Origin: Candidatus Nomurabacteria bacterium
GTDB taxonomy: Bacteria; Patescibacteriota; Saccharimonadia; Saccharimonadales; Saccharimonadaceae
Assembly (NCBI GenBank): GCA_031275815.1
Contig: JAISOF010000008.1
Span: 1-37,060, forward strand
DNA length: 37,060 nucleotides
Direction of reading: 5' to 3'
How positions within the stretch are numbered: position 1 is the stretch's first letter; the number at the start of each line of letters is the position of its first letter. The position numbers were made by a program, and so were the translations under genes. Under the pieces are notes generated by a model. It saw nothing but the letters and a program-made list of their open reading frames with translations. It made no database searches and had not been told where the DNA came from. Of the stretch, positions 4,154-37,060 are shown piece after piece.

Positions 4154-5382
4154 TATTTGTCTAAGCCGCTATTTTGGTTTTTACGCAACTCCACGTATGA
4201 CCGATAAAAATATGCCGCGCCCATGCTGAGCGCCAAAACCCCAAATACCGCCCCGCCGACATCCAATGGTCCGCTATATGGCAACTCTTTCGTCATTTCA
4301 CCGCCAACACAATCCTTGTTTACCTTCACCGTCGCGTCATCTTCCTGCGTCCCGTCGCCAGTCACCACATTCGCCGTATTCTTGAAGGTGTTCACCCCAC
4401 ACTCCAGCTGATCCGCATTTGGTACGCGCACTTTATATGTCACAATAGCTTCGCTACTGGGCTGGTACATGCCGATATTTATGCCGTTATTGAACAAATT
4501 ATCCGACACGAATTTCCCGTTCGCCCCATTGATGGTCAAAAAGGTCGTGCCGCTCAAATATTCCAGCCCACTCGGTTTTTTGTCCAGCAAAGTCACATCA
4601 TTTTGTTCAGTCGTGCCAACATTTTTATAGCTGATTTTGAAATCCACAATTTCGCCCGGATTGGCTTCCAGAACTTCCTGCCAAGCGCCCTCGCCGTCAC
4701 GGCTGACCGTTTTGTCCATCGTGAACTTGGGTAAATCCGCCTTAATCCGATAGGTCACATAACCAGCATACTCGTTGCACCCAGCCAAACTTCCCCAATA
4801 ATTCGCCGAGTACCCAATCGGCGTGCCGTTGTCAGAAAACAAATCCGCTGCCGGCAAGTTTGAGCCATTCACCGATCCGTCGCTGTGAATCACCGCCGAT
4901 CCGGGCACATATCTCAAATACAAGGTTTCCATGCTACTGATATACGCCTCGTCCCAAACTGTGGTCGGATCAGTGTTGGAAGAACTGATCACGCCGGTGA
5001 TTTCAGTTCGCCGTCCCGCCTCAAGCTTGCTTGGCACCTTCGAACTCATGCGGACGTTGTTCGCCATGCCGACGCCGCTGGCATTCAAACTGGCGGAAGC
5101 ATTATTGTGGAAATAAACATAGACCTCATATTCTTTACCCGCCTCCAGAGTCAGTTCTTCTTGGTATTTTTGTGTTCCCGCCACGCCTATTTGCACAAAA
5201 TTGGATCGCTCGTCACCCAACACGGGATTGTTGGTGATGGAGTTGATGGTGGGATGGTCCGCCGGAGCTTCCCATTTATACTGCGGGCGATCCGGCCCCC
5301 ATGCCAAAGCGCCACTAATCGGGATGAACACGCCGACCAAAAGCGTGAATAAAACCAATAGCGTTAGTTTTTTTGTTTTCAT
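4153..5382 (-). CDS. Secreted DUF11-type surface protein with C-terminal anchor
   Basis: A 409-aa exported protein. A signal peptide spans about residues 1-28 (KTKKLTLLVLFTLLVGVFI, then a small-residue site near ALA-W). The middle holds beta-rich repeats; about 225-350 matches DUF11/conserved-repeat style (FKISYKNVGTTEQNDVTLLDKKPSGLEYL). The C-terminus has LPYSG at about 368-372, a hydrophobic segment and a basic tail, which resembles an LPxTG-type sorting signal with Ser for Thr, although the tail is long. It could equally be a simple membrane anchor. Its ATG overlaps the stop of the preceding 1091-aa gene (ATGA), so the two are translationally coupled. Confidence 0.7.
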   Translation of the reverse strand: MKTKKLTLLVLFTLLVGVFIPISGALAWGPDRPQYKWEAPADHPTINSITNNPVLGDERSNFVQIGVAGTQKYQEELTLEAGKEYEVYVYFHNNASASLNASGVGMANNVRMSSKVPSKLEAGRRTEITGVISSSNTDPTTVWDEAYISSMETLYLRYVPGSAVIHSDGSVNGSNLPAADLFSDNGTPIGYSANYWGSLAGCNEYAGYVTYRIKADLPKFTMDKTVSRDGEGAWQEVLEANPGEIVDFKISYKNVGTTEQNDVTLLDKKPSGLEYLSGTTFLTINGANGKFVSDNLFNNGINIGMYQPSSEAIVTYKVRVPNADQLECGVNTFKNTANVVTGDGTQEDDATVKVNKDCVGGEMTKELPYSGPLDVGGAVFGVLALSMGAAYFYRSYVELRKNQNSGLDK

Positions 5383-8300
5383 CTGTATTCTCCATTTCCT
5401 CCATTACCATTAATTATGTTAGCGTTTTGTTCCGGTGTGTTGTTGGCGTTTTGACCAGCCTGCGCTTCTCTCTCTTTCGCGTCCGCTTCCGCCTCGCGCT
5501 CCGTCGCAATACCCTCTTGCGCTCGATCTTCGGCAGTCGGCAAACCATCACCCTCGCTCACCTTGTCAGCTCCATTTTGGACTTCCTCGATCGTCTTTTG
5601 TGACCCGTCCGGCATTGTCACGACGTCATCCAAGTGCTCATTGACGGCCTCTCCAGGAAGCTCGGCATCGTCAATTGTCTCAAACCCAATTAGGTTATCC
5701 GGCGCGCCGTCATTTGGCGAAGTTTCGGGTGGTTCAGCATCCTCAGGCGATTTATACTCATGTTCGCCTTCGCCGGTGTTTGTATCTTCGGTTTTAGGAT
5801 CAAGCCCATCTTCTTCCCCCGTTTCGTTTCCAGTTTCAGTACCCGTCTCCTCTCCAGTTTCTTCACCTGTCTCGTTTCCGGTTTCAGTACCTGTTTCTTC
5901 ACCTGTCTCATTTCCAGTTTCAGTACCTGTTTCTTCCCCCGTTTCGTTTCCAGTTTCTTCTCCCGTCTCATTACCCGTCTCAGTGCCTGTCTCATTTCCA
6001 GTTTCTTCTCCCGTCTCATTACCCGTCTCGCTACCTGTTTCATTGCCAGTCTCAGCGCCTGTTTCATTACCTGTCTCATTCCCAGTTTCGTTACCCGTTT
6101 CTTCTCCTGTTTCACTACCGGTTTCGTTTCCAGTTTCGCTGCCCGTTTCCTCTCCTGTTTCACTACCTGTTTCGTTGCCCGTCTCGCCACCTTCATACTC
6201 CACCGTCTCATCATAAACAATATCCCCCTTCACAATCACCTGCCCCGCGCCGCATTCGCCGCGCTGCAAAACGTGCCACTCAATATGCCCCGTCCGATGC
6301 GTAATCGTCTTGCTGCCATCAGGATTCAACACCTCTGTGTCCAATTCACCCCTGTTAGCCGCCAACAACTGCTCATATTCCTCCGTGCCGCTAAACTGCC
6401 CCTCAATCAACCGCTCCTCACCGCCGAACAACTTGAACACCTTGTCCATATTATAAATGCTCTTTCCTTCCGCATTCAATATCTCATACGCCGTCCCTCC
6501 ACTATTCGAGTTCAACGAAGTGCTAATATTATATATCGTTTCACCGCTACCATCCGTGTTCGTACAAATCCAAAACGAAGCATACCTGTGTCCAGTCAAA
6601 TCCACCTTATTAAAGCTGTGTATCCGCTCCATCACCGATTCTTTCACGCCAGCACTGTAAGAACGAAACGCACTCGGATCGTTCACAAGTTCGTGCGCAC
6701 GGTCGTTTAACCCGTGCAGATTCGTATAATTGTCGCCCGAATCTGTCAAATAATCATACAGCACCGACGTTTGCGGCAACTTGTCAATCCCCGCGCCTAT
6801 CTCTGATTTGAGGCTCGCCACGTCACCATCCAAAACATTCATACCCTGCAAAAAGTTTCCACGCTTGACATTAGAGCGCGCTTCTTCCACAATCTTCCAC
6901 GGCGAAGGCGTCTCTGCCTTAACCACAGTGCTAGCTAGCGCAGCCTCCGTACCCCCAGATTCCGCATGGTCGCCCAAATTGTCCAGAGCCATCGTATCAG
7001 TCTCGCCAATCGTTTGAGCCATCACATCCGGCGCGTCCGGCGCGTCACCTGCATAAACCTCGTCAACTCGAAAAGAATCCTTAATTGAAACGCCCAACGT
7101 CGCAACCTTGGCAAAAGCTTTCTCAACTCCACCCTGCAAAGAATCCAACACGCCCAGTTCGTCCAAAGCCCCCGCCGCCGCGCCAATCGCCGCGCCCGCT
7201 GCCACTCCGAAAGTAGCCGCTCCGCCAGCCGCCAACAGCCCCACGCCAACTCCCGTCGCAAATCCCAGAGCTCCCCGCGTCAACTTATATTTGCCAAAAG
7301 CCCGCCTCTTCTCTTTCAAGTCATTTTCAATTTCCTCAAGCTTCAACTTGGACTTCCCCACAACATCTTTATTGGCTTTTGACAGTTCCTCATTGCACTT
7401 GCGCAACATATCATCCAAAGCCGTTTCATACTCCGCGATATTGCCGCGACCGCCCGGATACACAAACACATCAATACCTTTCTCGTCCGCCAACGCCTTT
7501 TTCGCCTGTATCTCCGCCACACGACTTGCCAGTCCTTCCAAATCTGTCTCCTCGCCACCAAATTGCCCCAACTCATTAATCACTTCTTCTATATTTTCTT
7601 TCTTCACCCCAGTATTCGCCAACATCGTGTCCAGTTTCAGCTTCTTGGCTATCCAACTTTTTTCAATCGAGGCAACCTCCCCGCCTTTTTCTCCCAACGC
7701 TGCCATCTGCTCATATTTCACCCTATTCTTCTCCGCCGTATCACCGCCACGTAAAGCCCCAAAAATACCACCCACCACACCTGGCACACCAACGCCAACT
7801 ATCGCTTTCAAAGCCGCATTCAATCCCATCTTAGTTCCCATCGTACCGCCAACAGTCACCGCAGCTCCCAAACCGCCAGCCGCCAACAGTGCTGAACTTA
7901 TCTTGCTCCGCTTGGACTCATACGCTTTCGTTCTCAGCCCCACATTTTCTTTCTCACCGGTATAAACTTGCATGTTATTGATTTTCTCGGTGATAGTATC
8001 CAAACTCACCTGATGTGTGATCAAATTATCTATCGCGTCAGCCGTATAACCCAAGCCCACATTCAGCTCTCCTGCCTCAACTCCCTCCAACTCATTCAAT
8101 TCCTTGTTCAACTCCGCCCTCAATTCTTCCCGCACTTTTGCTAAAGCCTGTTCGCTTTCCTCTGTCAGCGCCTGCCCACCAGACAATTCGCCCAGTTTGT
8201 CATTCAAGCCTCTTGCATATTTACTGAGTGCCTCCCGCGTCTTCGCGGCTTTCCCCTCGTCCATATCCTTCATCTTATCCTGATCCAGACCCTTATTGAT

Positions 8301-8654
8301 AAACCTATCAACCAGAGCGCCCTCCGTTTTTTTGCTCATATTTTCCTGATTGTCGTCTTGCTCGCGATTCGCATAAAACCCCCGCTCGGCTTGCATTTTT
8401 TGCGCTGCTTCTTCAGTGTATTCATTAACCTTTTTCGACATGAAAATATTGTCTTTCACACCCTGCACGATGCGCTTGAGGCTGAACCCTTTGGCGCTGC
8501 TTTTCTCTTTCTCAATCCTCTCCAAAGCCACACTGAGCGCCTCCTGCCGCAAAGCCTCTCGCCCAATCTTAATACTGATAGCTTTCTCCAACTTATTGAA
8601 ATCGTCTTCAACGTCGTAACTTTCGTTTGGTTTTCTGATAGTTTCCCCAGCCAT
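5379..8654 (-). CDS. Large multi-region protein with Glu-Thr-Gly-x repeats
   Basis: Unrecognised 1091-aa protein. Residues 1-250 are charged and helical, probably coiled coil. Two Gly/Ala-rich hydrophobic blocks (about 252-302 and 455-500) look like paired membrane or glycine-zipper segments separated by another charged helical region. Residues about 590-815 are a mixed globular region. About 31 tetrapeptides of the form ETGx fill residues about 822-945, followed by an acidic, low-complexity tail. No signal peptide is seen, so topology is uncertain. It sits between the DUF5663-like gene (5 bp gap) and the DUF11 gene (ATGA overlap). A role in envelope structure or attachment is a guess from context. 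Confidence 0.6.
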   Translation of the reverse strand: MAGETIRKPNESYDVEDDFNKLEKAISIKIGREALRQEALSVALERIEKEKSSAKGFSLKRIVQGVKDNIFMSKKVNEYTEEAAQKMQAERGFYANREQDDNQENMSKKTEGALVDRFINKGLDQDKMKDMDEGKAAKTREALSKYARGLNDKLGELSGGQALTEESEQALAKVREELRAELNKELNELEGVEAGELNVGLGYTADAIDNLITHQVSLDTITEKINNMQVYTGEKENVGLRTKAYESKRSKISSALLAAGGLGAAVTVGGTMGTKMGLNAALKAIVGVGVPGVVGGIFGALRGGDTAEKNRVKYEQMAALGEKGGEVASIEKSWIAKKLKLDTMLANTGVKKENIEEVINELGQFGGEETDLEGLASRVAEIQAKKALADEKGIDVFVYPGGRGNIAEYETALDDMLRKCNEELSKANKDVVGKSKLKLEEIENDLKEKRRAFGKYKLTRGALGFATGVGVGLLAAGGAATFGVAAGAAIGAAAGALDELGVLDSLQGGVEKAFAKVATLGVSIKDSFRVDEVYAGDAPDAPDVMAQTIGETDTMALDNLGDHAESGGTEAALASTVVKAETPSPWKIVEEARSNVKRGNFLQGMNVLDGDVASLKSEIGAGIDKLPQTSVLYDYLTDSGDNYTNLHGLNDRAHELVNDPSAFRSYSAGVKESVMERIHSFNKVDLTGHRYASFWICTNTDGSGETIYNISTSLNSNSGGTAYEILNAEGKSIYNMDKVFKLFGGEERLIEGQFSGTEEYEQLLAANRGELDTEVLNPDGSKTITHRTGHIEWHVLQRGECGAGQVIVKGDIVYDETVEYEGGETGNETGSETGEETGSETGNETGSETGEETGNETGNETGNETGAETGNETGSETGNETGEETGNETGTETGNETGEETGNETGEETGTETGNETGEETGTETGNETGEETGEETGTETGNETGEEDGLDPKTEDTNTGEGEHEYKSPEDAEPPETSPNDGAPDNLIGFETIDDAELPGEAVNEHLDDVVTMPDGSQKTIEEVQNGADKVSEGDGLPTAEDRAQEGIATEREAEADAKEREAQAGQNANNTPEQNANIINGNGGNGEYR
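5820..6191 (-). repeat. 12-bp coding tandem repeat (about 31 ETGx units)
   Basis: A period-12 array in the 1091-aa gene encoding E-T-G followed by N, E, S, T, G or A. Third codon positions vary widely between units while the E-T-G amino acids are invariant, so the repeat is kept at the protein level and is not a fresh DNA expansion. The encoded segment is acidic, free of large hydrophobic residues and likely extended. Confidence 0.9.
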
Positions 8655-9709: not shown

Positions 9710-12700
9710 TCAAGCTTTTTGTAACGAAATCGTGACCTCCACGCCATCAACTTTTGCAATCTCGTCATAATCATAATTGCTGTTAGTGATTTTCGTAGCC
9801 AAAGTCTCTGTTTTTATTAACATCAACATTTTTTTCGGCAACTTCTCAAAATCATAACCCAAAATTGACAAAACTATCCTGTCGTCCACGCTCAGCCCCG
9901 CCTTCTTGCGCGCGTTTTGCACAAAACGAATCAGCTCGCGCACAAAACCCTCCACACGCAATTCTTTCGTCAACACCTTGTCCAATTTCATTGTCTTGCC
10001 CTGAACAACTTTTTTAACGTTAACCTCTTCGGCAATAATTTGCTCATAAAACGCGCTCAATTTGGTTCCCGTATATTCAAGTTTATTCAGAGGTTGGCGC
10101 ACCTTAATCTGTCCAAACTCGTCCTCTCTGTCCATGCGGAGCGCCAGACCTTTTTCGATGATTTCGCGAGTCGCGGCCATTTCGCTGACGACTTTTTGGT
10201 CAATCTCACCCGCCTCTGGCCAATCGAGCAGGTGCACCGACTCCCCACCGGTGAGTTTCTGATACAACTCCTCCGCCAAAAACGGCACGAACGGCGCCAA
10301 AAGTTGCGACAGATAAACCAAAACATAGTGCAGCGTCCGATAAGCCTCGTTTTTGTCCGCGTCGTCGTCACTCTTCCAAAAACGCCGCCGACTCCGCCGC
10401 ACATACCAATTCGACGCGTCGTCAACAAACGGCAAAATTGCACTCATCGCATCGGGCAAATTATAAGCATCCATATATTCGGTGATGTGGTTGCGGAGTT
10501 TGTGAATCCGGCTAATAATCCATTTATCAAGCGGACTTTTGACGTCGGCAGGGCTGAGGCTCGGCAAAGTTTTGTCTTTATATTCCCACCCGTCCACCTC
10601 CGCATACATCGTGAAAAAGTCGTACATATTCCAAATCATCGCCAGTTTGCGGGCAACATCGCCGACATCTTTGTCTTTGAGCGAGAAATCTTCGCCGGAC
10701 AGGAGCGGCGAGCTGGCTAGCAGAAAGCGTAATGAATCCGCTGAAAACTTGTCCATCAGCTCCATTGGGTCGGTGTAGTTGCCGAGGCTTTTACTCATTT
10801 TGCGGCCGTCTTCGCCGGCGATCGTGCCAGTTACAATCACATTTGAAAAGGCGTTTTCACCGAACAACGCCGTGCCGATGGCGTGGACGTAATAGAACCA
10901 AGCCCGCACCTGCGCCACGTATTCGACGATGAAATCCGCCGGATAATTTTGCTCAAACTTTTCTTTGTTTTCGAACGGATAATGGAATTGGGCAAACGGC
11001 ATTGAGCCGCTTTCAAACCAGCCGTCGAGGACTTCTTCGATGCGGGTGAAGTGTTCAACTTCGCCTTTTTGGCTGTCGCTCTTAACATTAAACCTCAGGA
11101 TTTCATCATTTGGCATATAGTATTTTGCTAATTTTCCATCTTTTGGCATTTTTTCAAAATAGAACTTGAAAGCCCGACTAACGCTACTATGAGCAACAAT
11201 CACAACTTTTTTGCCAGTATAATTGTCCTTCAGCCAGTCAATAAATGAATGGACACGTTCAAATAAATCTTTGATATTTTCACCTGGGCCGCTTAGGCTT
11301 TTTTCGTAGTCCCAACTGTCTTCATAGTTCTTCTGTGTTATTATTTTGCCTTTTTGGTCACCGTAATCCCGCTTGATCAACTCATTACGAATAATAAGTG
11401 GCGACTTAAAACTTTTGTTAATAATTTCAGCCGTCTCAATAGTATGTTTCATCGGCGAAACGAAAATTGCGTCAAATTTCGTGCCCATTTTTTTCAACTC
11501 TCCTCCGAGAGCTTTCGCTTGTTTCCTGCCTTCATCATTCAGCCCTACTTCTGAATCTCCCTGTATCCTTCCTTCTTTATTGTAGTCAGCCAAACCGTGT
11601 CGCACAAAATAAATCTCGGTGTTTTTGACGGGTGTGCCGTTGACCAAATCAAACTCGATTTTATCCACCCACGGGCGGTGGTAATCGTCGAGTTTTTGAC
11701 CGGAAAGTTCTTCCAGCTCGGCGTAACTGCCGACGACTTTGACTGTGCCTTTGTCGCCTTTCCAGACTGGCAGGGCTGTCGCCCAAAAGCGGTTGCGGCT
11801 CAAAGTCCAGTCGGGGGCTTGGTCGATGTTTTTGGCAAAACGGCCATTTTTGATGTGCGGCGGGAACCAATTTATCGGTTGGTTTTGAGCGAGCATCAAC
11901 GGCTTTTGCCCCTGAATATCCATAAACCATGAGGGAATCGCACGATACATAATACGTTGTTTGGAACGGGGGTTGAACGGATATTCGTGCTGGATGTAGT
12001 AGATTTTCCAGACCACGCCCTGCTCTTCCAGGCACTTGGCGATGAACTTGTTGGCCGCCCAGACCTCAATGCCCCGCTCGTCGGTGTCACGCACGCCGAT
12101 TTTGTGGAGCTGGTCGGCGGTGGCGGGGGTGTAATAGCCGTTGTCGTCGATGACGTGTTTGACGGGGATATTGTATTGTTTCGCCAAGTCAAAATCCGCT
12201 TCACCGTAGGCTGGTGCGATGTGAACAATGCCCGTGCCGCCCTCATTCTCCACAAAATCCGCTGAATAAATCTGGTGAGCTGAACTGTTTCTGGCCAAAT
12301 ACTCTTCGATTAATTTAATGTCTTTTTGGTCTTTTTCTCGGTTCATTGATTTCTTCCAGTCCAGCAAGTCCGGCAGATTAACAAAGTTCACCCCGTCGAT
12401 CTTCTCGGCTCGCTGAATCAACCCTTTAAAACCTGATTTCTCGTCGTACCAATCAAGCCAATCGTAGCCGCCAGATGTTTCAACTTCCATCCCGTCAACG
12501 ATTTTTTTACGCATTATCTTGTCGATAGCCTTTTTATAAACACTAGACCATTGGCCACTGTTTTCTATCGCCTCAAACACTTTGTCTGAAACAATCAAGT
12601 CAATGTCGTCGCTTTCTTTCATACCCAGAACGTCCATAATCCCCGAACCAAAAACCAGTACCTCGTCCAACGGAAGACCAAGTTTTTTAACAATGTCAAT

Positions 12701-14143
12701 AATCCGCCGATTAACGATTTTTCTGGAAACAACTGACGCTTCCACCTCTAGGAAAAGTGGAACATACTGAACGCCGACCAATTCTTTTCCGCTCATTTCA
12801 CGCACGATTTTTGCGTCTTTGCCCAAAACTTTTTCAACCAAATCTTTCGCTAAAACCAGCCGCTCGTCATTGATTTCAACTTCAACATATTTCAACTTCG
12901 GATTGACCGCTAAAGCCATATTCGCTGGCAAAGTCCACGGAGTGGTTGTCCAAGCCAGCAAATAGGATTCTTTTGTATTTAACAGCCGATATCCATGGTA
13001 GTGTGCGGGGTCATCAATGATTTTTTCTAAATTATCTTCATCGACCCATTCGATAGAAAATTGATCCTCATTTTCATCAAGGTTTCGTTCAACTTGCTCG
13101 TCATTTTCGAGTTCAAATAAAAGCGGCAAAAAATGCACAAACATATTTTTGTTTTTAACGTTTGAATAAAAATGATTATGAACTTTTTCAGAAGCTTTTT
13201 TGACAAGTTTGACATTTTTATAACCCGTTTCTTCCGCAATCTCACGCCTAGCGGTCTCGATTGGATTTTCGCCTTTTTCCATACCGCCACCAATAAATAT
13301 CCGTCCGCCCCAATTTTCGTGCCTTTCCCCCCAGTTCAAAACTAAAACTTGTTTCGTCTTTGGGTTTCGGACGATTGCGATAATTGCGTCTTTTTCCGTC
13401 TCGTCTGGTTTTTTGAGACCGAATTCTCTCTCGCCATTGTTATTTTTATCAACTATTTTAAATTTAACATAAACTGATGGGTCGGTGACAGTTTGATAGG
13501 CGTCGTTGTCCATCGTCACCTCCGCCTTGCTGACCGGCGTGGCGAATTTGGTGTCATACATCAGCACCTTTTCGCCCTCATAGATTTTGCCTTTTTTATA
13601 AAGTTCGGCGAACGCCCACCAGACGCTTTCCATGAAATCTTTGTCCATTGTGCGGTATGCGCCTTTGAAATCAACCCAACGGCCAATCCGGTCGATGTAC
13701 TGCTCCCAAGTTTCACTGTTCGCCACCATCATATCACGGGCGGTGGTGACGTATTCTTCTAGCGTAATTTCCTTTATTTCATCACCCGACTTTAACAAAA
13801 GCTCGTCCGGCTTGCCGCCAGCCTTACGTGACACCGTGCCATTCAAATGCTTTTCAGTAAAGTTTTCCGCCGGCAAACCGTGACAGTCCCAACCCCAAAC
13901 TCGCTCGACCCGCTTGCCATTCATCGTCTGATAACGTGGAATCACGTCCTTAACAACCGAACTCAGCAACGTGCCGTGGTGCGGCAACCCCGTAATAAAC
14001 GGCGGCCCGTCATAAAACACATAAGCGTCACCGCCCGCCCGCTGCTCGACCGATTTTTCAAAAATCTGGTTTTCCTTCCACCACTTCGCAATCGCCTTTT
14101 CGTATTCAATCGCTTTTCGGCGGGTGCCGTATTTGAATTTCAT
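9710..14143 (-). CDS. ileS: Isoleucyl-tRNA synthetase with Nudix, nucleotidyltransferase-like and histidine-phosphatase inserts
   Basis: Class Ia synthetase charging tRNA-Ile, archaeal/eukaryote-like form. The HIGH-type motif is PHHGT (54-58), an unusual variant; GWDCHGLP is at 84-91 and KMSKS at 1115-1119; the anticodon-binding region follows. At 1477 aa it is about 400 residues longer than usual because of three inserts. (1) About 233-390: Nudix domain with a perfect box G286-x5-E292-x7-R300-E-I-x-E-E-x-G307. (2) About 468-620: nucleotidyltransferase-like fold with FGSG (498-501) and DID (513-515). (3) About 840-1025: phosphoglycerate mutase-like domain with RHG (848-850) and a second His985. 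Editing-domain blocks TTTPWTLPAN and GTGIVHIAPAYGE flank the inserts intact. It is the last gene of the coupled operon (ATGA with pemK). Confidence 0.93.
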   Translation of the reverse strand: MKFKYGTRRKAIEYEKAIAKWWKENQIFEKSVEQRAGGDAYVFYDGPPFITGLPHHGTLLSSVVKDVIPRYQTMNGKRVERVWGWDCHGLPAENFTEKHLNGTVSRKAGGKPDELLLKSGDEIKEITLEEYVTTARDMMVANSETWEQYIDRIGRWVDFKGAYRTMDKDFMESVWWAFAELYKKGKIYEGEKVLMYDTKFATPVSKAEVTMDNDAYQTVTDPSVYVKFKIVDKNNNGEREFGLKKPDETEKDAIIAIVRNPKTKQVLVLNWGERHENWGGRIFIGGGMEKGENPIETARREIAEETGYKNVKLVKKASEKVHNHFYSNVKNKNMFVHFLPLLFELENDEQVERNLDENEDQFSIEWVDEDNLEKIIDDPAHYHGYRLLNTKESYLLAWTTTPWTLPANMALAVNPKLKYVEVEINDERLVLAKDLVEKVLGKDAKIVREMSGKELVGVQYVPLFLEVEASVVSRKIVNRRIIDIVKKLGLPLDEVLVFGSGIMDVLGMKESDDIDLIVSDKVFEAIENSGQWSSVYKKAIDKIMRKKIVDGMEVETSGGYDWLDWYDEKSGFKGLIQRAEKIDGVNFVNLPDLLDWKKSMNREKDQKDIKLIEEYLARNSSAHQIYSADFVENEGGTGIVHIAPAYGEADFDLAKQYNIPVKHVIDDNGYYTPATADQLHKIGVRDTDERGIEVWAANKFIAKCLEEQGVVWKIYYIQHEYPFNPRSKQRIMYRAIPSWFMDIQGQKPLMLAQNQPINWFPPHIKNGRFAKNIDQAPDWTLSRNRFWATALPVWKGDKGTVKVVGSYAELEELSGQKLDDYHRPWVDKIEFDLVNGTPVKNTEIYFVRHGLADYNKEGRIQGDSEVGLNDEGRKQAKALGGELKKMGTKFDAIFVSPMKHTIETAEIINKSFKSPLIIRNELIKRDYGDQKGKIITQKNYEDSWDYEKSLSGPGENIKDLFERVHSFIDWLKDNYTGKKVVIVAHSSVSRAFKFYFEKMPKDGKLAKYYMPNDEILRFNVKSDSQKGEVEHFTRIEEVLDGWFESGSMPFAQFHYPFENKEKFEQNYPADFIVEYVAQVRAWFYYVHAIGTALFGENAFSNVIVTGTIAGEDGRKMSKSLGNYTDPMELMDKFSADSLRFLLASSPLLSGEDFSLKDKDVGDVARKLAMIWNMYDFFTMYAEVDGWEYKDKTLPSLSPADVKSPLDKWIISRIHKLRNHITEYMDAYNLPDAMSAILPFVDDASNWYVRRSRRRFWKSDDDADKNEAYRTLHYVLVYLSQLLAPFVPFLAEELYQKLTGGESVHLLDWPEAGEIDQKVVSEMAATREIIEKGLALRMDREDEFGQIKVRQPLNKLEYTGTKLSAFYEQIIAEEVNVKKVVQGKTMKLDKVLTKELRVEGFVRELIRFVQNARKKAGLSVDDRIVLSILGYDFEKLPKKMLMLIKTETLATKITNSNYDYDEIAKVDGVEVTISLQKA

Positions 14144-29898: not shown

Positions 29899-29907
29899 AA
29901 TATTCCA

Positions 29908-29936
29908 AGTCTACCAGATTTTTATGTTATTATCAA
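29908..29936 (-). promoter_or_regulatory. Promoter of rpsU-yqeY-adk-map
   Basis: Minus strand TTGATA (29931-29936), 17 bp, TAGACT (29908-29913), 9 bp before the rpsU ATG, without a recognisable Shine-Dalgarno site. Confidence 0.55.
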
Positions 29937-29978
29937 CTATTTATCACAAAAAGTCATAAGGTCAGACCCTAACCCACC

Positions 29979-30045
29979 CGGACTGGGTTGTTTTGGCTTC
30001 GTGAAAGACGCAACCACCACAGGTTCACCATACGCAGACGTCGCT
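29979..30045 (-). pseudogene. Fragment of a second DGR target gene, inverted
   Basis: Read on the minus strand: TCGGCVFHEAKTTQS, matching TCGGQALHETKAVQS, the segment just before the variable region of the intact target at 31246. Silent differences (CAC/CAT, GAA/GAG) show a diverged paralogue, not a copying artefact. Upstream the frame is broken by a TGA. The match ends exactly at the 10-bp sequence CGGACTGGGT (29979-29988), whose inverted copy opens the template-like repeat at 30325. Confidence 0.65.
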
Positions 30046-30107
30046 GTAGTAATGTTAGTGCTACTTATGAATATTGATTTTATGATTTGGGCGTGGCACA
30101 GTACTAT

Positions 30108-30189
30108 AAAATTTTATAGTAGCTTTATAGTAGGCACTTTTAACAGGAGTCGGCGCACCCTTAAAAATTTTATAGTAGCTTTATAGTAG
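30108..30189. repeat. 26-bp direct repeat pair
   Basis: A 26-bp AT-rich sequence containing TTTTATAGTAGCTTTATAG occurs at 30108-30133 and 30164-30189 without mismatches. It lies inside the inverted segment between the target fragment and the template-like repeat. The stretch 30050-30320 has no other recognised content. Confidence 0.7.
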
Positions 30190-30324
30190 ACGACTTTAGC
30201 AAAAAAATTACTTAGAGAGCAGGCTGTTGCGAAGTTATTGTTCTTCATCATCATGATGGTCGTGCTTATACGCACACTCCCCAAAACCCACCGCGTGGAG
30301 TATAATAAAAAAGGTGTCGGTTCG

Positions 30325-30516
30325 ACCCAGTCCGTTTCGTCCAACGATCAGTCGTGGGGCTCGGACTACTCGAACTTTGTGAATTCCAGCAATCCGTGGT
30401 TTGAACGCGGTGGCAACGCGAACAATGGCTCGAACGCCGGTTTGTTTGCCTCGAACAACAACAACGGCAATGCCAACAACAACATAGGCTTTCGGGTGGT
30501 CTTGGGTTCGTTTTAG
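30325..30516 (+). repeat. DGR template-repeat-like sequence (Asn-codon rich)
   Basis: A 192-bp stretch that reads in frame like the C-terminus of an FGE-sulfatase-fold DGR target (SWGSDYSNFV, PWFERGGNANNGSNAGLF, GFRVVLGSF, stop). Sixteen of about 62 codons are AAC/AAT, clustered where the intact target's variable region differs: at 11 of these 16 positions the target has G, Y, S, L, V or D. Asn codons at variable sites are the mark of a template repeat subject to adenine mutagenesis. Non-adenine differences from the local variable region are also many, so it is not that region's recent template. Alternatively it is the 3' end of a broken second target gene. Confidence 0.65.
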
Positions 30517-30622
30517 TGATTGTGGCGTGAGCTCGGCTTTCGGTTTTCGGTGGTTGTGGCTTGGCTCGTTTCGTGGCGTTTCTGGGTGGTTTCGGGCTTT
30601 TTCCCGAGTACATATAATCTCC

Positions 30623-30724
30623 TTAATCTTGAGCTTGCTGCGAGATATAATTGCCAATCGGAATGCCAATAGTCACATCATTGGTACGATTTTTGATGTC
30701 AATGCTTAGCACAAACCGCTCTTT
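30623..30724 (-). pseudogene. Possible DGR reverse transcriptase core fragment
   Basis: The minus-strand frame ends RFVLSIDIKN ... TIGIPIGNYISQQAQD-stop. GIPIGNYISQ fits RT motif 4, and IGNYISQ matches the [I/L/V]GxxxSQ form that separates DGR reverse transcriptases from other bacterial ones; SIDIKN resembles the motif before it (DIKxFF). The sequence between is far too short, and no YxDD motif is present. If real, it is a heavily deleted remnant, in the opposite orientation to the tail at 30811. Confidence 0.35.
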
Positions 30725-30810
30725 GGCTTTTTCCGCCTCTTTTTCTTTTTCGGATTTTTCGGCAATTTTTGTAGATTGCAAATTTTCACCCCTGTTGAGG
30801 GTCAGACCTT

Positions 30811-31114
30811 GCTGTTGGCTATTAGAACATCTTTTCCTTTGACGGGGGACAGTCCCCCTACCAAAAACGGTGACAAGGAGGAGTTCTTGAAGAGTTTGCA
30901 AAGTTGGCGGGCGCACGTCTCGCACGCCAACAGCCAGAATTATCAGGACACGATATTCCAGAGTATCTGTGCTGAGTTCTTTGGCTTAGTGGTGGAATGT
31001 CCGGAACACAAGAAGGATTTTCACCCCGACTGTATGGATTGTTATGCTACCCAGCAGGACAAAAACCACATTTGGGAGATATTGAAGTCGTTCTTGACTG
31101 ATGAGGAGGAGTGA
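30811..31114 (+). pseudogene. Reverse transcriptase C-terminal remnant
   Basis: The open frame contains KEEFLKSLQSWRAHVSHANS, close to the SLQSxLGxxSHAN signature near the C-terminus of DGR and related reverse transcriptases, followed by about 55 residues with C-x7-C-x2-C (VECPEHKKDFHPDCMDC). All catalytic motifs are missing; the frame begins just after a REP-like palindrome. It sits downstream of the template-like repeat on the same strand, the usual TR-RT order, and ends before two terminator hairpins. Confidence 0.5.
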
Positions 31115-31129
31115 ACCACAAAAAATCCG

Positions 31130-31185
31130 GCGCGGTCGCTCTTCAGGCGACCGCGCGAGTGGGGCAAAATCGTAGATTTTGCCCC
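31130..31185 (+). terminator. Two hairpins between the convergent DGR genes
   Basis: GCGCGGTCGC/GCGACCGCGC (31130-31139, 31147-31156, loop 7) and GGGGCAAAAT/ATTTTGCCCC (31161-31170, 31176-31185, loop 5), the second followed by TGTTTTGTT. They lie just after the plus-strand remnant and before the end of the minus-strand target gene, suitable as a bidirectional terminator. Confidence 0.7.
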
Positions 31186-31216
31186 TGTTTTGTTACTAGT
31201 TCTAAAGCCTATTAGA

Positions 31217-31245
31217 CATAGGTAGGGCTTGTTGCCCTACCTATG
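31217..31245 (-). promoter_or_regulatory. Perfect 12-bp hairpin directly after the variable region
   Basis: CATAGGTAGGGC/GCCCTACCTATG with a TTGTT loop begins next to the stop codon of the target gene. In characterised DGRs a DNA hairpin/cruciform just downstream of the variable region helps target recognition. It may also act as a terminator, but it lacks a T tract. Confidence 0.6.
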
Positions 31246-33324
31246 CTAATATGCGCCGGCGACCGCCCGCCAACCGTAGTTGTTCGCGTCCCCGCCCCCG
31301 CCGTTCGAGTCCCACAAACCAGCGTTCGACCCAACGAGGGCGCTGCCCCCACGGGCGAACCACGGGCTGAGCACGTACACGAAGCCCGAGTAATCTTCGC
31401 CCCAAGACAGAACGTTGCCTGAAAGGGACTGAACTGCTTTGGTCTCATGCAAGGCTTGACCACCACAGGTTGCGTAAGTGCAGTAATTGTTGTTCGTGTA
31501 AGATGATGTCGGGGCAGTGAATGGGTTGCTTTGGTTGTATGTATTTAGATATTGATTAGCGGGGAATTGAATTGGATTAGTTACTGTACAGGCTGTGGAG
31601 TATGGGCTGGTGCTACTGTAACAAATGCCAGCGGAAGTGCCGTCAACCGTAAAACCGGAGTTTTGGGAGGTAGAATTGCCGGTGCGGGGGTCACCATTAC
31701 TGTCGGTATAGACTGCCATTTGGTATTCGTAGGTGCCTCCTGCCATGTCGTAGATGCCGTAGATGTTCCCTGTCGTGGAGGCTTGTTGCCCGATGGTGGT
31801 GTGGTATTGGTAGAGGGTTTTACTGAGGCTATCAGAGTGCGTGGCGACTGGACCGGCGCCAGTAATGTAGCGGCAACCGGTGGCGGTGGTGGAGACGTCT
31901 AATGTGACTGGGGTGGTGGAGCAGGTTTGGTTGGAAGAGATACTATTATTGTAGTAGCCATTGTTGTAGGTCTTCTTGAAGTTGGTGGAACAGGTGGTGT
32001 CAGTGCAGGTTTCGTCTCCCACTCCATAGGTTGAGGTGCTAAGGTAGGTGGCTGCTCCCCAGTGATTGTTGGTGCTCATGTGGGTGTTTTGGTTACTTAG
32101 GTTGTGGGCGGTTTTGATGTATTCGGCGGAGAGGTATTGGATGGAAACTTTTTGATGGGTGGCGGGGGCATAGTTTGGTTTGATGGTGGCGTAGAGGCTG
32201 GTAGTGTTTAGAGGAACACCAGTATCATTGGTACTGCTACCTCCATTGCAAGAGGTGGTGTGGCAATAATAGTTGTCGCTTCTGGAGCTTTCAAATTTGC
32301 CGTACCAGAAACCGCTGAGTTCAGTGCTGCCGACGGTGAAGGCGGGGTGGGTTGCCCAGGCGTTGTCTGCTCCCACGTTGGTTTGGTAATCGCCAGTGCC
32401 GGTGTAGGCAGTCGGGGTGGCTTTGGGGTCAGTGGTTTTTTGGAAAGTGATGTTGAATGGGGTTTGGGTGCGGTAGTTGGTGTTGTCGTTGGTAGCGTTG
32501 TATCTTGTAACCTGATATTTGTATCTCGGGATGTAGGTCCAGTAGCCGAGAATGTCGTCTTCTGAGACTTCTGTGCCAATCGGGGCGTGGTCTTTGTAGT
32601 ATTCTAGTGGCGTATATTGTCCACTGCCATCAGTGTGTCTAGTCCCATCTTGGTCGTATGAGTTGAGGCTGGTTTTGTTGTTGACAAGCGTGAGTGCGTT
32701 TGCCCATTTCTTGTTGTCGTAGTTTGCCCATTCGGTGTTGGCTGTGGCAAGGTCGGTGTTATAGACTACTGGGAGCATGTTGGCGTCTTTGTCGACGGTG
32801 ATGTTGGTTGCGCTAGCTCCTGTGAGGGCGGTGGTGGATTTGACCCAGCCGCTCAGGGTGGTGGGGGCTAGATTTGCGGTTTCGTCATAGGCGATGTCAA
32901 GGGTATAGGCACCGATGTTGGAGTTTGCGGGGATGGTGATGACGACTTCAAAGGTGGTGGTTTCACCGTTGGTGGTTGTGGCGTTGTTGTTGGTTGTGAT
33001 GAGAATATTGGTGGGCGTGGAAGAAAGGGCGCAGGGTGTGGTTTTGGGACATTCAGAAGAGGTGTCACTGCCTACGGTGATGGTGGCGCCGGTGAGGTTG
33101 TTGGCGGAGATTTGGGCGGTGAGGGTGTAGCCGTGGGTGGCGGAAGTGTCTTTGACGTTGACTTCGGAGGTGCGGGTGATGGTGGTGATATTGGTATCTT
33201 GGGTGGTGGTGAGGGTTTGGTTGTTGTTGATGACAGTTATGTTGCTTGTTGCAGCTTCAGTGGGGGCGAGGGAGCGATAAAACACAAAAGTCAGAGCGCC
33301 AACCAGAACAATTGACGCAACCAA
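31246..33324 (-). CDS. DGR target protein: secreted FGE-sulfatase/C-type-lectin-fold variable protein
   Basis: A 692-aa protein as opened by a TTG start. Residues 1-24 are a membrane segment (SIVLVGALTFVFY). About 25-160 is a Thr/Asn-rich beta domain, about 200-690 a formylglycine-generating-enzyme-like domain: YWTYIPRYKYQVTRY, GNIYGIYDMAGGTYEY (about 519-534), and the final PWFARGG-4-GSNAGL ... GWRAV. This matches known DGR targets of candidate-phyla bacteria, displayed on the cell surface to bind ligands. The TTG start lies within the membrane segment; the frame is open for another 160 bp upstream, and a better ATG at 33447-33449 with GGAGG is out of frame only because of the (GA)10 tract. 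Confidence 0.8.
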   Translation of the reverse strand: MVASIVLVGALTFVFYRSLAPTEAATSNITVINNNQTLTTTQDTNITTITRTSEVNVKDTSATHGYTLTAQISANNLTGATITVGSDTSSECPKTTPCALSSTPTNILITTNNNATTTNGETTTFEVVITIPANSNIGAYTLDIAYDETANLAPTTLSGWVKSTTALTGASATNITVDKDANMLPVVYNTDLATANTEWANYDNKKWANALTLVNNKTSLNSYDQDGTRHTDGSGQYTPLEYYKDHAPIGTEVSEDDILGYWTYIPRYKYQVTRYNATNDNTNYRTQTPFNITFQKTTDPKATPTAYTGTGDYQTNVGADNAWATHPAFTVGSTELSGFWYGKFESSRSDNYYCHTTSCNGGSSTNDTGVPLNTTSLYATIKPNYAPATHQKVSIQYLSAEYIKTAHNLSNQNTHMSTNNHWGAATYLSTSTYGVGDETCTDTTCSTNFKKTYNNGYYNNSISSNQTCSTTPVTLDVSTTATGCRYITGAGPVATHSDSLSKTLYQYHTTIGQQASTTGNIYGIYDMAGGTYEYQMAVYTDSNGDPRTGNSTSQNSGFTVDGTSAGICYSSTSPYSTACTVTNPIQFPANQYLNTYNQSNPFTAPTSSYTNNNYCTYATCGGQALHETKAVQSLSGNVLSWGEDYSGFVYVLSPWFARGGSALVGSNAGLWDSNGGGGDANNYGWRAVAGAY
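31249..31431 (-). other. DGR variable region (VR)
   Basis: The last about 61 codons of the target gene, from the CAG of VQSLSG to the final Tyr. It aligns with the template-like repeat at 30325-30516 with one codon indel. At template Asn positions VR codons are GGC, TAC, AGC, CTC, GTT, GAC and the like: third base pyrimidine in 15 of 16, as expected when AAY is altered at adenines only. Confidence 0.7.
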
Positions 33325-33421
33325 AACAAGAGGTTTGGAGTATTTGGGAGGTTTGGATAAACTGAGATGTTTCGCCCTAAAGGGGCGTACTCTCTTAAAT
33401 GACTCTACGCGGCGCGCGCCG

Positions 33422-33441
33422 TCTCTCTCTCTCTCTCTCTC
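33422..33441 (-). repeat. (GA)10 dinucleotide tract at the target gene start
   Basis: Ten TC units on the plus strand, GA on the coding strand. They follow ATG TTC AG at 33449 and encode Arg-Glu repeats. In the given length the ATG frame ends after 18 codons; loss of one GA unit, or gain of two, would join the ATG to the long frame, adding about 41 N-terminal residues before the membrane segment. Confidence 0.8.
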
Positions 33442-33571
33442 CTGAACATAACACTGGTACCCCCTCCAATTCTTACTTAACCTTAACTAACTATAAGTAG
33501 TATAACATACCACCCCCACCCCGCGCAATACTTTTTCAAGTTTTTTGTTTGCGATGGTGATTATTAAAACT

Positions 33572-36826: not shown

Positions 36827-36890
36827 CCGCGGGCGCCCCCGCCCCCCCGCCCCGCCGCCGGCCCCGCCGGCCCCCCCCCCGCCGCCGCCC
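36827..36890. other. Extreme GC low-complexity tract
   Basis: About 65 bp of almost only C and G (runs of up to ten C, GCCGCC repeats) in a genome of otherwise moderate GC. It directly joins a coding sequence that lacks its N-terminus. This looks like an assembly or sequencing artefact, or a collapsed repeat at the contig edge. Confidence 0.6.
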
Positions 36891-37060
36891 GACGCCCAAC
36901 ACACCCACACCCTCTTTGAATATGACGACTACACCAACATCGTGAACCAGTTGCAAGCCATTGGGCTTGACTTCACCAAGCGTGCCACCATTGCCATTGA
37001 CGAAATCCAATATTCACGCAATATCCCCAGAGTTATCAAGTACCTCTATGACCACTATAA
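36891..37060 (+). CDS. AAA-type ATPase (DUF4143-associated group), partial
   Basis: The open frame runs off the window: HTLFEYDDYTNIVNQLQAIG, then TIAIDEIQYSRNIPRVIKYLYDHY. The IDEIQ block with the following NIPRVIKYLYD is the Walker B region of the AAA_14/DUF4143 ATPases common in bacteria and archaea. The Walker A part and start codon should lie where the GC-rich tract now stands, so the 5' end is missing or misassembled. Confidence 0.75.

Follow-up and report, generated by a model that had tools for sequence, protein, structure and literature searches.

A working diversity-generating retroelement (DGR) uses an error-prone reverse transcriptase (RT) to copy the RNA of a template repeat (TR); adenines are misread, and the cDNA replaces the variable region (VR) at the 3' ends of target genes. 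In the DGR of Bordetella phage BPP-1 the mutagenesis falls on adenines, the VR lies at the 3' end of its gene and a hairpin follows it. CPR DGRs, assigned to clade 2 by Roux et al. 2021 (PMC8144416), are cellular elements of Patescibacteria whose targets have few recognisable domains, and the group has been reported with lower activity. Treponema denticola strains without RT and TR keep 2 to 6 targets, in which VR differences after loss of the core fall mostly at adenine-derived sites (PMC4891356). Thiohalocapsa PB-PSB1 carries 15 targets of several template classes at nine loci, some of them disrupted (PMC10907252). Decayed multi-target DGRs are therefore already known, and the locus reported here is a new, well-preserved case.

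The window, by which we mean the whole analysed stretch of 37,060 nucleotides, is contig C30 of a Candidatus Nomurabacteria assembly (1.07 Mb in 43 contigs, 93% complete); other loci of this genome are labelled by contig in the same way (C5, C6, C17 etc.). The locus resembles the CPR DGRs in its cellular, patescibacterial setting and in the scarcity of recognisable target domains, but only a stump of the RT is left here, and one 1.07-Mb genome holds no fewer than 16 target paralogues, a large family for its size. As in T. denticola, left-over targets remain; however, a TR and a piece of the RT can still be recognised here, and the targets are more numerous (16 versus 2-7). PB-PSB1 has intact RTs and variation continues at most of its loci, whereas no intact RT was found here, and in contrast to BPP-1 neither a working RT nor, near the TR, an Avd was found. 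Very probably, the window holds the remains of one DGR cassette that is now dead, its target having been written earlier by an unassembled template of the GWRAV class. Features of the locus and of an intact cassette from the same family are given in Table 1.

Table 1. Features of the DGR locus in the window and of the intact cassette L079 of genome G004
Feature	Position	Strand	Description
Window: target-gene scrap TCGGCVFHEAKTTQS, with stop codon	29981..30051	-	ends where the TR begins on the other strand
Window: TATAAT box, probable TR promoter	30301..30306	+	just upstream of the TR; putative function
Window: template repeat (TR)	30325..30516	+	63 codons plus stop; 16 are AAC/AAT at VR-variable columns
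Window: probable inverted RT scrap TIGIPIGNYISQ (DGR motif 4)	30638..30673	-	12 residues, E about 0.03 within the stretch
Window: DGR reverse transcriptase stump	30869..31099	+	last 76 residues (293-368 of 369), inside ORF 30776-31114
Window: candidate target-site hairpin	31217..31245	-	12 bp, perfect; directly after the target stop codon; no T-run
Window: variable region (VR), GWRAVAGAY class	31249..31434	-	at the 3' end of the target gene
Window: target gene	31246..33324	-	ORF; 692-aa protein; start codon (TTG 33324) uncertain
G004 L079: TR	5509-5700	+	
G004 L079: Avd-like ORF	5935-6282	+	weak match to bAvd, E=0.001
G004 L079: RT	6279-7388	+	IGNYTSQ and YMDD; RVT_1 E=4e-18
G004 L079: target	7590 onward	-	convergent with the RT

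The repeat on the plus strand is a genuine DGR template. All 16 of its Asn codons sit at columns that vary among 11 gap-free VRs of the genome; Asn fills 16/16 of these columns in the TR as against 0 to 6 in any VR (log10 probability of -12.6 under the VR column frequencies), and the translated repeat is 80% identical to the TR of the intact G004 cassette, which also has a TATAAT upstream. The surrounding element (30293-30321) has a second copy on the opposite strand, 132 bp past the C17 target stop (24/29 identity, genome E=0.014), perhaps the trace of another deleted cassette. A preliminary description had aligned the TR with the 3' end of the neighbouring target gene. That alignment is real, with a local score of 121 compared to a maximum of 40 among 500 codon shuffles. 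Where 11 of 16 Asn codons had been counted as changed, the codon alignment gave 10 different among 15 aligned and one deleted, and the pyrimidine third bases, put at 15 of 16 VR codons, were recounted as 14 of 15. In the base-by-base table that had been proposed, differences occurred at 24/41 template A, 15/49 C, 8/50 G and 20/46 T, so that the expected adenine excess was present (p=9e-4). At the same time 43/145 non-A positions were changed, and the window TR therefore did not write the window VR, as the preliminary description had concluded for recent times.

The protein encoded by the window target has a hydrophobic segment at the N-terminus, a long stalk and a predicted C-terminal FGE/C-type-lectin-like domain. 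Its profile touched the DGR protein TaqVP (5VF4, E=0.04) and sulfatase modifying factor 2 (SUMF2, E=0.5), both weakly; no useful match was obtained in Pfam, NCBIfam or PHROGs, and an AlphaFold model of the target domain (aa 148-692, 11 sequences) was discarded at a pLDDT of 35. The DMAGG...RGG...GSNAG...GWRAV frame on which a known DGR host fold had been proposed is present, and a C-type-lectin fold of the C-terminus would be plausible, though weakly supported. The window VR groups with those of C5, C21 and C42 and with that of C66 of the same-genus genome G001. It differs from C42 at 26/41 TR-adenine sites and 22/145 other sites (p=5e-9), and from C5 at 27/41 and 20/145 (p=2e-10). Judged by these patterns, it is a genuine VR, but its template class is not that of the neighbouring TR. 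On L183:1-2307 (JAISFI010000195.1), a contig binned as Dysgonamonadaceae (Bacteroidota), a gene with Bacteroidota-like neighbours encodes a protein that shares 48% identity with the window target over 576 columns; the target domain may have been transferred horizontally, or the contig may be misbinned.

Hairpins comparable to the one behind the window VR follow C42 (17-bp stem with one mismatch) and the G004 VR (12-bp stem). After most other VRs no hairpin was found, and the loops of those present, including the one in the window, are not GRNA, unlike in BPP-1. A GRNA hairpin of the BPP-1 type was not supported as a general feature.

Beyond the features described previously, the analysis revealed the RT stump and 15 more paralogues of the target elsewhere in the genome. 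The at least 16 target C-termini lie on C5, C6, C16, C17, C20, C21, C23, C24, C25, C29, C30, C34, C35 (two), C38 and C42. Eleven VRs were set against the TR codon by codon, and the TR adenines were used as a mask for differences between VRs of one class; C16, C25, C38 and the second C35 copy are more diverged, and our claim of adenine mutagenesis does not extend to these four. Between C6 and C34, 25/43 TR-adenine sites differed as against 5/146 others (p=5e-15). The corresponding numbers were 27/43 and 22/146 for C17/C29, 30/43 and 19/146 for C17/C35, 31/43 and 16/146 for C29/C35, 18/43 and 13/146 for C42/C21, and 21/43 and 13/146 for C42/C5. While 30/189 bases differ within the VRs of C6 and C34, the 66 bp upstream show 0 differences and about 70 bp downstream are identical save for one indel. 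At the Asn-template columns, codon positions 1, 2 and 3 carried 31, 20 and 0 differences in class C42/C21/C5, and 27, 24, 6 and 36, 37, 11 in the other two classes; the third base was a pyrimidine in 166/176 Asn-column codons (p=4e-11). Since the changes fall at TR adenines and at codon positions 1 and 2, and the C6/C34 flanks are nearly identical, they reflect localised adenine mutagenesis rather than selection on loops. A dozen of the at least 16 surface-type genes clearly bear DGR mutation scars.

The VR closest to the window TR is that of C17, yet it has 21/146 non-adenine mismatches; the window TR therefore wrote none of the assembled VRs recently. Templates for the classes C6/C34/C20 and C42/C21/C5 were found nowhere in the assembly, so that at least two further templates are missing. 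By these comparisons the DGR was at work in the lineage until fairly recently, with C6 and C34 showing recent activity. A silent-cassette (gene conversion) reading was dropped, as the short frames of C6 and C34 are contigs ending inside ordinary target genes. Two isolated pieces of the family were also noted. On C24 (~13930-14015; L189 ~2430-2515) an orphan VR tail GSYPGLFASASRYGSALNGTGWRAVAGAY stands in frame behind an unrelated short N-terminus, adjoins probable tRNA genes and shares its last 32 bp with the C42 VR end; on contig C7 (L078:4568-4648) there is a lone scrap of the conserved target stretch FYSNDICTWSTCGGQALQTTK with no VR behind it.

In the same-family genome G004 the cassette is intact. 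TR-to-VR changes in G004 affect 16/47 A and 0/132 other bases, and in G015 23/40 and 1/149. The best PDB match of the G004 RT is 8ub7 (E=3e-47), which we take to be the BPP-1 bRT complex. The window and G004 have the same order and strands of TR, RT 3' end and convergent target; the distance from TR to target stop, however, is ~0.7 kb in the window versus 1.9 kb in G004. The RT stump is 63% identical to the G004 RT (E=3e-31) and is the sole RT match in the genome. Residues 1-292 including the catalytic YxDD are missing, so the catalytic four fifths are gone; no RVT_1 domain was detected in the 93% complete genome, and the G004 Avd as query found no match and no remnant near the TR (29900-31300). 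With only a stump of the RT, no RVT_1 and no Avd near the TR, the window cassette is dead. Neither the RT stump nor the VR profile found relatives in IMG/VR, and no viral source was therefore seen.

Two smaller scraps bear on how the enzyme was lost. The motif-4 scrap matches at the DNA level over 22 bp (91%), the motif reading IGNYTSQ in G004 and G015. The target-gene scrap upstream of the TR matches the C6/C34 genes over 71 bp at 70% and the window target over 46 bp at 74%, which suggests an inversion of ~340 bp at the 10-bp inverted repeat CGGACTGGGT. Neither the motif-4 scrap nor the inversion is as well supported as the RT stump. The original order would have been TR, Avd and RT on the plus strand, with a surface-type target gene running towards them on the minus strand. 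A deletion of ~1.2 kb together with one or two small inversions would have taken out Avd and the RT core, and the cassette would no longer be able to write. Its target would carry the writing of a different GWRAV-class template, and the targets would stay as intact, now frozen variants unless another cassette works in the cell. Of the two explanations that the preliminary description had left open, decay of the locus is shown by the RT stump and the lack of RVT_1 in the genome, and another template elsewhere must once have existed, since no template of class C5/C21/C42, to which the window VR belongs, is present in the assembly. The genome search it had proposed, for a DGR RT and a template of 31249-31431, yielded the stump only and no matching template in the assembly.

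The strongest alternative leaves the window cassette dead but adds an unassembled or unbinned intact cassette (RT plus templates of the other classes) that writes the VRs in trans. We hold it to be somewhat less than an even chance. The templates of C6/C34/C20 and C42/C21/C5 are missing although the C6 and C34 VRs diverged recently, and trans action of DGRs is documented in Thiohalocapsa PB-PSB1 (PMC10907252). Moreover, C6 and C34 end, and C23, C35, C38 and C42 begin, inside target-family genes; as the genome is 93% complete and its contigs break at these very genes, an intact cassette may be absent from the assembly. Against this, the stump is the only RT in a 93% complete genome, the same-genus genome G001 (74% complete) has two targets and no RT, and drift has changed 2 to 15 of 63 third codon positions between VRs of one class. 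The recent writing of C6/C34 and the lack of templates in the assembly speak for a second cassette having been present until lately, while drift at synonymous sites within classes, and the failure to find any RT, speak for loss of the DGR from the cell. The trans-writing cassette concerns the cell and the dead window cassette concerns the locus, and the two are compatible.

An assembly artefact, in which a mis-join between strains removed the RT from a locus that is really intact, is improbable. The TR and VR are inverted copies, a kind of repeat favouring mis-joins, intact and disrupted variants of a DGR locus coexist in PB-PSB1 (PMC10907252), and, judged from the assembly alone, a chimeric join or strain mixture may be present at 30517-31114; but the stump lies in an open frame, order and strand are conserved, and several independent scraps point to a real rearrangement. 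An ordinary paralogous surface family with loops varied by duplication and positive selection, the TR being a degenerate gene end, can be dismissed even though the family is large, the TR frame closes with a stop like the targets and its flank is somewhat similar to C17, because in Asn-template codons the changes are concentrated at the first two positions and the third base is kept, the template columns are Asn in 16/16, a DGR RT stump lies beside the TR and the intact G004 cassette has the same order.

Elsewhere in the window, an isoleucyl-tRNA synthetase of 1477 aa (9710-14143, minus strand) has a NUDIX domain inserted at aa 252-383 (E=6e-16) and a histidine phosphatase domain at aa 844-1003 (E=6e-35); a third insert, at ~aa 480-610, is nucleotidyltransferase-like by eye. 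When aa 221-664 were compared with 61 family genomes, only G064 had a long stretch over part of the third insert (60% identity), and the NUDIX stretch was found in no other genome. A 1091-aa protein (5379-8654, minus strand) carries a long ETGSETGNETGEETG repeat tail and has no Pfam match. Near the contig end an abrupt C/G-only low-complexity run (36830-36895), possibly a sequencing or assembly artefact, precedes a truncated ATPase-like frame.

The dead window cassette offers a snapshot of DGR death in a tiny, uncultured and probably host-dependent bacterium, with the RT core and Avd lost but the template, and written targets across the genome, retained. We propose only tentatively, and as rather unlikely, that this patescibacterium keeps its at least 16 surface-type proteins, at least 12 of them visibly hypermutated from at least 3 template classes, although its own mutating enzyme is gone, either as a frozen repertoire maintained by selection or with an orphan TR served in trans by the RT of another element. 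With a syntenic cassette still intact in a genome of the family, what the loss of targeted hypermutation costs such a bacterium, and what it brings, can be tested on population reads.
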